From Cypionkella psychrotolerans (GTDB lineage: Bacteria > Pseudomonadota > Alphaproteobacteria > Rhodobacterales > Rhodobacteraceae): DNA of 64,000 nucleotides. The stretch is from NCBI RefSeq assembly GCF_001294535.1, contig NZ_LGIC01000006.1, positions 1 through 64,000 of the forward strand, in the 5' to 3' direction. Numbering within the stretch: the first letter of the stretch is position 1; each line of letters begins with the position of its first letter. Shown here piece by piece: positions 6,257 through 52,130 of this stretch. The translations under genes were made by a program, and so were the position numbers. The notes under the pieces are model-generated. The model did not search any database. It saw only the letters and a list, made by a program, of their open reading frames with translations, and was not told the origin of the DNA.

Positions 6257-7036
6257 ATGAAAATCGCCACCTTCAACATCAATGGCATCAAGGCGCGGAT
6301 CGAGGCTTTGCCCGCTTGGCTTTCGTCGGCAACCCCCGACGTGGTGTGTTTGCAGGAAATCAAATCGGTGGATGAGGGGTTTCCGCGCGAGATGTTTGAG
6401 GCGATGGGCTACCGGGTGGAAACCCACGGGCAGAAATCGTTCAACGGGGTGGCGATTCTGTCGAAACTGCCGCTGGAGGATGTGACGCGGGGCTTGCCGG
6501 GGGATGCGGACGACGCGCAGGCGCGCTGGATTGAGGCGACGGTGATCGGGGCAAGGGCCGTGCGCGTGTGTGGGCTGTATCTGCCGAATGGGAACCCAGC
6601 GCCGGGGCCGAAATATGACTACAAGCTGGCATGGATGGCGCGGATGCACGCGCGGGTGGAAAGCCTGTTGCCGCTGGAGGAGCCTTTGGTGTTCTGTGGC
6701 GACTATAACGTGATCCCGCAGGCCGAGGATGCCGCCAAACCCGAACTGTGGCTAGAGGACGCGCTTTATTTGCCGCAAAGCCGTGCGGCGCTGCGGCGGC
6801 TGCTGAACCTTGGGCTGACTGAGGCGTTTCGGGCGCGCAACCAATCGCCGGGGCAGTATTCGTTCTGGGATTATCAGGCGGGGGCGTGGGAGCGGAATAA
6901 CGGCATCCGCATTGACCATCTGCTGCTGTCACCGCAAGCGGCGGATCTGCTGCAAGACTGCCAGATCGACAAACAGGTGCGCGCGGGCGACAAGCCGTCG
7001 GATCATGTGCCGGTCTGGATTGAACTTGACGCCTGA
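6257..7036 (+). CDS. xth: Exodeoxyribonuclease III (AP endonuclease)
   Basis: The 259-aa member of the exonuclease III/endonuclease-reverse transcriptase family repairs abasic sites in DNA. Motifs in order: KIATFNINGIKAR at the N-terminus, VCLQEIKS with the metal-binding glutamate, GLYLPNG, the FCGDYNVIP motif, RIDHLLLS and the catalytic SDHVPVW near the C-terminus. Length matches XthA. GGAGGC precedes the ATG. Its stop is 6 nt from the stop of the convergent lipoprotein gene. Confidence 0.95.
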   Translation: MKIATFNINGIKARIEALPAWLSSATPDVVCLQEIKSVDEGFPREMFEAMGYRVETHGQKSFNGVAILSKLPLEDVTRGLPGDADDAQARWIEATVIGARAVRVCGLYLPNGNPAPGPKYDYKLAWMARMHARVESLLPLEEPLVFCGDYNVIPQAEDAAKPELWLEDALYLPQSRAALRRLLNLGLTEAFRARNQSPGQYSFWDYQAGAWERNNGIRIDHLLLSPQAADLLQDCQIDKQVRAGDKPSDHVPVWIELDA

Positions 7037-46604: not shown

Positions 46605-46955
46605 CGGCTCAGAAATCACCACGTCAACGCCATCTCGCACCGCCGTGTAAAAGCAACTGCGCCGATTGGTATGGCAGGCCGGACCCACTTGCGTCACCAG
46701 CGCTAACAGACAATCGCGGTCGCAATCAACCCGCAGCTCCACCAAACGCTGCACATGGCCGGAGGTTTCACCTTTCGCCCAAAAACTGGCTCGCGACCGC
46801 GACCAATAGGTCATCGCCCCCGTTTTCAGGGTGCGGGCCAGCGATTCCGCACTCATCCACGCCATCATCAGCACCTCGCCCGAGGCGTGATCCTGCGCGA
46901 TGCAGGGAATCAGGCCGTTGGCATCGTAAGTCAGCGTTGTGGGGTCGAATTGCAT
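46599..46955 (-). CDS. hisI: Phosphoribosyl-AMP cyclohydrolase
   Basis: The 118-aa enzyme opens the ring of phosphoribosyl-AMP in histidine synthesis. It has MMAWMSAESLARTLKTG, YWSRSRASFWAKGETSGH and the metal-binding cysteines in VDCDRDCLLALV and PACHTNRRSCFY. It is the single-domain HisI form without HisE. AAGGAG precedes the ATG at 46955. Its 3' end overlaps that of gluQ by six bases in the convergent direction, and it is divergent from the scaffold gene. Confidence 0.95.
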   Translation of the reverse strand: MQFDPTTLTYDANGLIPCIAQDHASGEVLMMAWMSAESLARTLKTGAMTYWSRSRASFWAKGETSGHVQRLVELRVDCDRDCLLALVTQVGPACHTNRRSCFYTAVRDGVDVVISEPL

Positions 46956-47016
46956 CGGCTGCTCCTTGGCGAAGGCGTGCTGTCGGCTTATCTTGTGGGT
47001 AAGAAAAGGGGAAGCC

Positions 47017-47457
47017 ATGAGCGACAGCGATCTCGTCAAACTCTACTCGGGGCGGATTTTGGCGCTGGCGGCCGAGATTCCGCATTTGGGCCGCCTGCCC
47101 GCCCCTACGGGAAGCGCGCGCAAACGCTCGCCGCTGTGTGGGTCAACCGTGACGGTTGATGTGGTGATGAAAGCGGGGCGGGTTGCGGATTTCGCCCAGG
47201 ATGTGAAGGCCTGCGCGTTGGGCCAAGCTTCGGCTGCGATTTTAGGCGGGGTGATTCTGGGTCGCAGCCTTGCCGAGCTTATTGCCGCGCGCCAGATGCT
47301 GCTGGCGATGTTGAAAGACAATGGCCCAGTGCCTGCAGCACCGTTTGACGGTTACGAAGTATTAATCCCGGCGCGCGAATATAAGAATCGCCACGCCTCT
47401 ATTCTTTTGGCGCTGGACGCCGCCTGCGAAGCTGCCGCCCAGGCAGAGGCCGCATAA
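47017..47457 (+). CDS. Iron-sulfur cluster assembly scaffold protein (IscU/NifU N-domain-like)
   Basis: The 146-aa protein has the IscU-type pattern with two of three usual cysteines: SPLCGSTVTVDV and VKACALGQASAAI. The third position, which reads C-R-x-x-W in IscU, here reads KNRHASILLALDA with no cysteine, so cluster binding may use another ligand. Such divergent IscU relatives are seen in alphaproteobacteria. AAGGGGAAG is upstream. It lies divergent from hisI and is far from the erpA-like gene at 5137. Confidence 0.82.
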   Translation: MSDSDLVKLYSGRILALAAEIPHLGRLPAPTGSARKRSPLCGSTVTVDVVMKAGRVADFAQDVKACALGQASAAILGGVILGRSLAELIAARQMLLAMLKDNGPVPAAPFDGYEVLIPAREYKNRHASILLALDAACEAAAQAEAA

Positions 47458-47491
47458 AAAAACCGCCGCGCATCCCATCGGATGGCGGCGG
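47456..47491 (-). terminator. Intrinsic terminator of the small SOS-linked gene
   Basis: The arms CCGCCGC-CATCC and GGATG-GCGGCGG form a stem of about 12 pairs, with one bulged base, and the minus strand continues TTTTTTTAT. It faces the minus-strand small gene that ends at 47594, about 100 nt upstream, and supports that gene being transcribed. Confidence 0.82.
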
Positions 47492-47593
47492 AAAGTGGCG
47501 TTCTTTCACCAAGGCAGTGGCAGGGCAGCCACGCGGCGCATCACTTGGGGACAAATGCGCAGGCCCGGTTCAACAAGACCGCAGGCAGAACCT

Positions 47594-47716
47594 TCAAAGC
47601 GTGCCAGACATTCCCAATCCGGCGAAAAGCAGGGCAAACAGCGACACGACGCCAACGGCATCAGCGACAAGGCTGGTGTTGGAGCGTTTCAGGATTTCGA
47701 TAATCTCGGTGAACAT
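47594..47716 (-). CDS. Small single-helix membrane protein, candidate SOS-induced
   Basis: The 40-aa frame begins MFTEIIEILKRSNTSLVADA and continues with a hydrophobic helix VGVVSLFALLFAGLGM before ending in SGTL. GGAGGT lies seven bases before the ATG, one of the best ribosome sites in the window. An intrinsic terminator lies downstream and a LexA-type box (GTTC-N7-GTTC) upstream. The layout, a short amphipathic or charged start followed by one transmembrane helix, is like Caulobacter SidA, an SOS-induced division inhibitor, but there is no visible sequence identity. It is too short for usual gene calling. Expression is inferred, not shown. Confidence 0.75.
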   Translation of the reverse strand: MFTEIIEILKRSNTSLVADAVGVVSLFALLFAGLGMSGTL

Positions 47717-47772
47717 TGCGACCTCCGTTTGCTTGTTGCCATATTGTTCTCACACTCTTTACCACCTGTAAA

Positions 47773-47807
47773 GAACTTTATGGGAACATTTGTGAACTTA
47801 GGAGAAC
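47773..47807 (-). promoter_or_regulatory. LexA-type SOS box and GTTC array
   Basis: On the minus strand GTTC occurs four times in a row, at 47804-47807, 47794-47797, 47784-47787 and 47773-47776, with spacers of 6, 6 and 7 bases. The last pair, GTTC-CCATAAA-GTTC, is an exact alphaproteobacterial LexA site. The array lies about 57 bp before the small membrane-protein start, next to a TTTACA / AACAAT promoter-like pair. Confidence 0.78.
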
Positions 47808-47862
47808 ATAGCCCACGTGCGGTGCTTTGGTTCCCAGACCACAGACACAAGATTGTGAGGTT

Positions 47863-52130
<4,268 letters not shown>

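Follow-up and report, generated by a model that had tools for sequence, protein, structure and literature searches.

A small membrane protein gene with a LexA-type operator and a conserved structured 3′ RNA beside recG in the Rhodobacteraceae

We describe a chromosomal locus of the Rhodobacteraceae in which a very short gene, here called smORF, adjoins recG, follows an array of LexA-type half-sites and precedes a conserved structured RNA that ends at a terminator. Comparison of homologous loci establishes, at the level of sequence, the gene with its half-site array and promoter layout, its linkage to recG and the structure of the RNA. We read the locus as an SOS-induced dual-function transcription unit of the family that would produce a membrane protein together with a regulatory RNA, an interpretation that we consider to have an even chance of being correct as a whole.

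A conserved small gene beside recG

The window (the whole 64,000-nucleotide stretch of Cypionkella psychrotolerans DNA analyzed here) carries smORF on its minus strand. On one side lies recG, whose stop is at 47863, and on the other a convergent NifU/SufU-like gene of the plus strand (46939-47457). An earlier reading of the DNA letters (the sequence-only reading) had proposed a 40-codon minus-strand gene with a GGAGG ribosome-binding site and a single membrane helix; the ORF, starting with ATG, was found at 47594-47716, GGAGG at 47726-47722 and one hydrophobic segment in the product. The gene and its control region are laid out as follows.

47594..47716, minus strand: smORF, gene of the predicted 40-aa small membrane protein, stop codon included (ORF list, homologues, profile)
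47722..47726, minus strand: GGAGG ribosome-binding site (sequence)
47743..47772, minus strand: promoter-like TTTACA - 18 - AACAAT (promoter scan; layout aligned across loci)
47746..47751, minus strand: GAGAAC, inverted half-site that overlaps the -10 (220 of 296 genomes have the rigid pattern)
47773..47787, minus strand: GTTC-N7-GTTC, LexA-type operator adjoining the -35 (in 104 of 105 loci and 78 of 80 named loci)
47784..47797, minus strand: additional GTTC half-site, N6 spacing (three-unit array in 92 of 105 loci and 69 of 80 named loci)
47794..47807, minus strand: fourth GTTC half-site at N6 spacing (only 30 of 105 loci have the exact four-unit array)

The convergent neighbor gave a NifU_N/SufU-like Pfam match of 22.1 bits against a cut-off of 22 and an NCBIfam match below cut-off, and its stop codon falls at the edge of the smORF transcript's terminator. 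Beyond recG lie genes that we take to be ligA and ctrA, names drawn from their translations without a family search.

Conservation of the frame in relatives had been set as one test of the sequence-only reading, and homologues proved to be widespread. The smORF protein itself matched 22 of 61 genomes, namely all 15 of the genus (the own genome included), 7 of 22 in the rest of the family and none of 24 in the rest of the class. A 15-row profile found matches in 253 of 296 family genomes (252 of 295 genera), as a single copy in all except five of the 253. A 43-row profile run against a class sample of 337 genomes gave five matches, every one in the window's family. This conservation of homologues makes the 40-aa smORF almost certainly a real gene. 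In 10 of the 15 genus loci its pN/pS was 0.30 and its JC dN/dS about 0.21.

We read 105 loci in detail, with longer stretches of the same places substituted for L023, L027, L028 and L029 in the tables and L031 omitted. Every ORF begins with ATG, and 92 of the products are 40 aa long. Residue 19 is Asp or Glu and both Gly-22 and Leu-34 are invariant in all 105; the last 18 residues are uncharged in 104, and the first 18 carry on average 2.6 Lys/Arg and 1.7 Asp/Glu residues. From its sequence the product is predicted to span the membrane once as a helix, N-terminus inside. No family in Pfam or PADLOC matched the smORF protein, and an NCBIfam match to another smORF member (E 0.13) and a PHROGs match (E 0.31) were discarded as chance hits.

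The adjacency to recG noted in the window extends across the family. A recG match lay upstream on the same strand at 102 of the 105 loci, 83-247 bases from the match end in 101 and 623 bases in one, and was absent at L014, L141 and L204. It was also upstream at all 80 loci taken from named records, which are the best 80 of 112 relatives and of which 12 repeat loci of the 105. These records come from Rhodovulum, Ruegeria, Phaeobacter, Leisingera, Sulfitobacter, Roseobacter, Shimia and others, and by them the scope of the smORF family was judged to be the Rhodobacteraceae as defined in GTDB.

The operator array and its regulator

The window's box, GTTCCCATAAAGTTC at 47787-47773, is of the type GTTCN7GTTC, which is the Caulobacter LexA box (PMC12700426). 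It adjoins the -35 of the sole promoter-like pair (TTTACA/AACAAT) that a scan found in 47400-47900, where shuffled sequences gave a mean of 0.3.

The sequence-only reading had pointed to this box and proposed a genome scan for the motif. Sites were found before lexA and recA, but the motif is not enriched in the own genome (104 sites versus 195 for the reversed pattern), so a single box, being at chance level, was ruled out as evidence and the weight comes from conservation. The box occurs within 220 bases upstream of smORF in 104 of the 105 loci. The longer form GTTC-N7-GTTCTT was present in 102, with GAAC another 15-24 bases on in 101. Among the 80 named loci the counts were 78 for the box, 78 for GTTC-N7-GTTCTT, 77 with GAGAAC and 69 for the three-unit array, compared with no box in any of the 80 when a downstream control stretch was examined; without the 12 repeats (n = 68) they were 66 for the box, 65 for the full pattern and 59 for the three-unit array. 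Of 296 family genomes, 220 contain the rigid pattern GTTC-N7-GTTCTT-N14-20-GAGAAC, most of them a single time; its reversed control occurs in one genome.

Minus-strand GTTC units start at 47807, 47797, 47787 and 47776 in the window, in the steps of 10, 10 and 11 bases that had been described. The exact four-unit form recurs in only 30 of the 105 loci, and it is a three-unit N6-N7 array that is general (92 of 105). The four-site array is a part of the earlier interpretation that had to be narrowed; the conserved single-helix protein, the LexA-type operator and the recG neighbor stood.

LexA is the likeliest regulator, because the same type of box precedes lexA (by 31 bases) and recA (by 151 bases) in the own genome, both genes having been located by Pfam; on these sequence grounds LexA very probably controls the smORF promoter. 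In a survey of 94 regions, standing for 100 listed of the 104 own-genome sites, other sites precede what we take to be a uvrD-like gene, two dinB/umuC-like genes and a radical-SAM splB-like gene, and one overlaps the start of a presumed photolyase gene. The recA promoter carried GAAC-N7-GAAC in 10 of 12 LexA-positive relatives. A further layout, TGTTC...CTCATA...GAAC-N7-GAAC, is common to many recA promoters of the family (L229-L248) and resembles parts of the smORF operator.

That some regulator other than LexA binds here, placing the unit outside the SOS response, is improbable in our judgment. This alternative draws on the N6 steps, which differ from known LexA spacing, on the base before the second GTTC, which is A rather than T in most of the 105 loci, and on one genome, G175, that keeps the array with no detectable LexA; against it stand the boxes of the same type at lexA and recA and the distribution of LexA itself. 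A LexA match was found in at least 287 of 296 family genomes (up to 20 candidates per genome scored). When the nine LexA-negative genomes were searched again with the own genome's LexA, the match in G095 was weak and confined to the C-terminal part. In G066, G095 and G188 the LexA match, recA box, smORF match and array are all absent together. G181, G182 and G308 have no LexA match yet carry the recA box, smORF and array, and G215 has the recA box with neither a LexA nor a smORF match. Since these four genomes keep their recA boxes, the missing LexA there looks like, and probably is, an assembly gap, and we rejected LexA absence as proof of another regulator. In G147 smORF and the array were found with only a partial recA and no LexA match, and G104 gave a weak LexA match and no recA. 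G175 (a 3-contig assembly; loci L250 and L236) leaves some room for another regulator: no LexA was found, smORF and array are kept, and the recA box is degenerate (GAAC-N7-GAAT). It offers a natural test of which regulator binds the array.

Two other kinds of locus in the own genome were encountered. A 43-aa smORF-like protein is encoded at 3046-3177 of L108 (contig C82, about 6695-6826, plus strand; E 0.0013, or 1.1e-4 with the 43-row profile), in a setting read as a Mu-like prophage early region with a neighbor matching phrog_7669. A GTTC-N7-GTTC site lies 1.85 kb from this ORF, with a DinB-like gene on the far side. As a second SOS copy the C82 match (L031) was rejected on account of the Mu-like prophage setting and the lack of an array upstream. 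Phage records gave no match to the C82 43-aa protein or to the window's smORF protein. Separately, GTTC-N7-GTTC sites at L083 (C62, about 7740) and L123 (C86, about 315029) are accompanied by similar protein starts, MEASTFTLSATPRQIAYARSLA and MEDTTFAIAATERQLSYARSLA, which are possibly an unrecognized SOS family.

The structured RNA of the 3′ UTR

The conserved structured RNA downstream of the ORF is the most distinctive part of the unit and was overlooked in the sequence-only reading. The features in the window are the following.

47467..47590, minus strand: 3′ UTR RNA element, match to covariance model R1 (26.8 bits, E 0.0122)
47575..47582, minus strand: P1 long-range stem, 5′ arm, GCG-n-TCTT (compared with the L010, L011 and L015 folds)
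47498..47505, minus strand: P1 long-range stem, 3′ arm, AAGA-n-CGC (compared with the same folds)
47536..47560, minus strand: hairpin P2, GCGCAT ... ATGCGC around TGTCCCC (folds; family covariation)
47517..47532, minus strand: hairpin GTGG-CTGCCCTG-CCAC with a C-rich loop (folds)
47456..47491, minus strand: terminator hairpin and seven T (fold)

The downstream terminator that had been predicted is visible in the fold at 47491-47456 as a hairpin with a bulged stem and seven T, which a simple terminator scan of 47400-47900 did not list. By a script criterion a terminator follows smORF in 100 of the 105 loci, in 95 of them 100-219 nt past the stop codon, and in these 100 the ORF and the conserved RNA structure precede the one terminator, a feature of dual-function mRNA/sRNAs. 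Across loci the sequence between the stop codon and the terminator keeps a common pattern. Over the 100 UTRs with a terminator, CTGCCTG occurs in 122 copies versus 3.4 expected and CTGTCCC in 104 versus 4.1, the expectations being from mononucleotide shuffles. A pairing survey of 95 of these UTRs (95-225 nt) found CUGCCU to be unpaired at a fraction of 0.79 and UGUCCC at 0.74, while other C-rich hexamers stood at 0.38; 92 of the 95 UTRs contained two or more UGYCY copies. An ungapped stem search, which found a stem of 6 or more in 90 of 95 UTRs, had no control and was discounted.

The architecture consists of a long-range stem, P1, around a hairpin, P2 (of GCAUC-CUGUCCCAA-GAUGC type), with further hairpins. 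It was captured in R1, a covariance model of 8 loci and 19 pairs in which P1 and P2 were placed by hand. Of the 97 loci that had not entered the model, 61 gave an R1 match at E<=0.01, in a test that was not blind, as L166, L176, L180 and L212 (among the 61) had been viewed while the pairs were being placed and many UTRs had been read before the model was built; the other 36 include several from the window's genus. Of the named loci 66 of 80 matched, or 56 of 68 without the 12 repeats. In the 61 matched loci 94.4% of cells were paired and both sides had changed in all 19 pairs; in the 66 named loci the values were 93.9% and 18 of 19. Covariation was 0.423 in the 61 loci, versus 0.164 shuffled and 0.045-0.084 slid, and 0.460 in the 66 named loci, versus 0.181 shuffled and 0.047-0.082 slid. 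Both alignments, fitted to R1, are biased in its favor, and the shuffle test is inflated by relatedness, which makes the slid controls the fairer comparison. This covariation points to selection acting on the RNA, and we consider it highly likely that the 3′ UTR structure is under such selection.

When 12 UTRs, four from model members, were folded singly (z -0.9 to -5.3), the long-range stem appeared in 11, all except the window's. The window's copy is a short form. It is the best R1 place in its own genome, at 26.8 bits, the next-best giving 14.1 bits and E 9.6 among the 150 scored of 908 candidates. It folds no better than shuffles (z -0.71, and -0.90 in a second fold test), and P1 does not form in its minimum-energy fold; its kin L010, L011 and L015 take the P1 form, with z of -1.1, -2.3 and -1.7. 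RNAalifold on MAFFT alignments, which misalign P1, recovered the terminator and at most P2. Rfam gave no match at E<=1 in 46900-48200 of the window and six matches in ten other loci, all far below gathering scores; one sub-threshold match, sX13 (24.2 bits versus a gathering score of 50), falls on the RNA.

The sequence-only reading took the locus as a possible counterpart of SidA, the SOS-controlled 29-aa inner-membrane protein of Caulobacter that interacts with FtsW (PMC4211646). A plain counterpart, with an RNA of no function, would account for the size, the single helix and the LexA-type box, all of which agree; the covariation of the 3′ UTR, however, argues for selection on the RNA, and we find this version unlikely. 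SidA and smORF share a very short single-helix protein (40 aa in 92 of 105 loci) and a LexA-type box, with function assigned by analogy, and they differ in length (29 versus 40 aa) and in the conserved structured 3′ RNA found here. Among the 337 class genomes smORF had no match outside its own family. Its likeness to SidA as considered here is one of size, helix and operator.

The repeated, mostly unpaired C-rich motifs recall LhrC and other UCCC-motif sRNAs, whose redundant single-stranded C-rich motifs bind the G-rich ribosome-binding region (PMC4132741). LhrC is multicopy in Listeria, whereas this RNA follows an ORF and has one match in its own genome among the 150 scored of 908 candidates. 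We put action in trans at even odds. The structure could instead serve purely in cis, for mRNA stability or for tuning translation of the ORF, leaving the protein as the sole acting product; we regard this as rather unlikely. The RNA always lies downstream of the ORF in the loci seen, as a cis role would have it, but repeated unpaired C-rich motifs exceed what a stabilizing hairpin needs. A further argument for cis, 5′-3′ pairing, comes from a comparison of 173 loci (11 without the start-site motif and 4 of another type). Where the motif (47734-47741 of the window, minus strand) is of TCAAC type, GACCTGCC occurs in the 3′ UTR of 25 of 40 loci, and where it is of GCAAC type in only 5 of 118. 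The two motifs could possibly reflect such pairing, though their correlation follows clades, which speaks against the cis reading. The correlation of 5′ GGTCA with 3′ TGACC, being clade-bound, was dropped as a claim.

A candidate dual-function SOS unit

The mechanism that we infer, from LexA binding and induction through a single transcript to the membrane topology and target of the protein and the targets of the RNA, would run as follows. LexA would sit on the GTTC array abutting the -35, holding the promoter shut, and would probably also occupy the inverted GAGAAC at the -10. DNA damage would lead to cleavage of LexA and release a short mRNA, of about 280 nt in the window. Its 5′ half would be translated into a 40-aa inner-membrane protein with the N-terminus inside, most likely a checkpoint effector acting through contact of its helix with a membrane partner, for example the FtsW/FtsI/FtsN complex. 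Its 3′ half would form a branched RNA displaying several single-stranded CUGCCU/UGUCCC motifs, which would most likely pair with the G-rich ribosome-binding sites of other mRNAs. In its fullest form, a LexA-driven bifunctional RNA at a core chromosomal locus that encodes a checkpoint peptide and acts as a C-rich-loop sRNA silencing several mRNAs in trans, we advance the proposal only tentatively.

For the protein, a SidA-like block of division is plausible by analogy, although we rate the chance that the 40-aa protein does block division as somewhat short of even. It might otherwise be an SOS peptide like TisB or DinQ that depolarizes the membrane and slows the cell without inhibiting the divisome. 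DinQ of E. coli is a single-TM peptide controlled by LexA, whose two operators lie at the promoter, and it is also controlled at the RNA level (PMC3567139), and LexA-type control of a single-TM peptide is common to both; but the strict conservation of Asp/Glu-19, Gly-22 and Leu-34 in all 105 loci suggests a specific partner, and we doubt this alternative. The RNAs also differ, that of DinQ being the antisense agrB and that of smORF a same-strand element of the 3′ UTR. A precedent for a unit of this make-up is the dicBF operon of the E. coli Qin prophage, where one mRNA yields a small protein and an sRNA that both act on cell division (PMC10448788). Here too a small protein and an RNA would come from one unit, presuming a single transcript; dicBF is prophage-borne and repressed by DicA, whereas the smORF unit adjoins recG and has a LexA-type operator. 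SidA, LhrC and dicBF are invoked as analogies, not as groups to which the locus belongs.

The combination of a LexA-type promoter, a small-protein mRNA and a conserved structured 3′ RNA was not found in the literature searched, mostly open papers without supplements. The main text of a LexA-site study in D. shibae (PMC6473078) never names recG, and the main texts of sRNA surveys in Ruegeria pomeroyi (PMC4809877) and Paracoccus denitrificans (PMC5107571) name neither recG nor LexA. Taken singly, both halves of the unit belong to known kinds; joined, and across a whole family, they appear to be new.

The unit appears to belong to the core of a large, mostly marine family that includes the roseobacters, and the family libraries searched (Rfam, Pfam and NCBIfam) cover neither its protein nor its RNA. 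Homologues in Ruegeria, Phaeobacter and Sulfitobacter place it in culturable hosts. It is a candidate for the membrane side of the DNA-damage response in the Rhodobacteraceae. If the proposal is true, one SOS promoter would yield a structured regulatory RNA along with a coding mRNA, and DNA damage would act on division or the cell cycle at the level of protein and of RNA at once.
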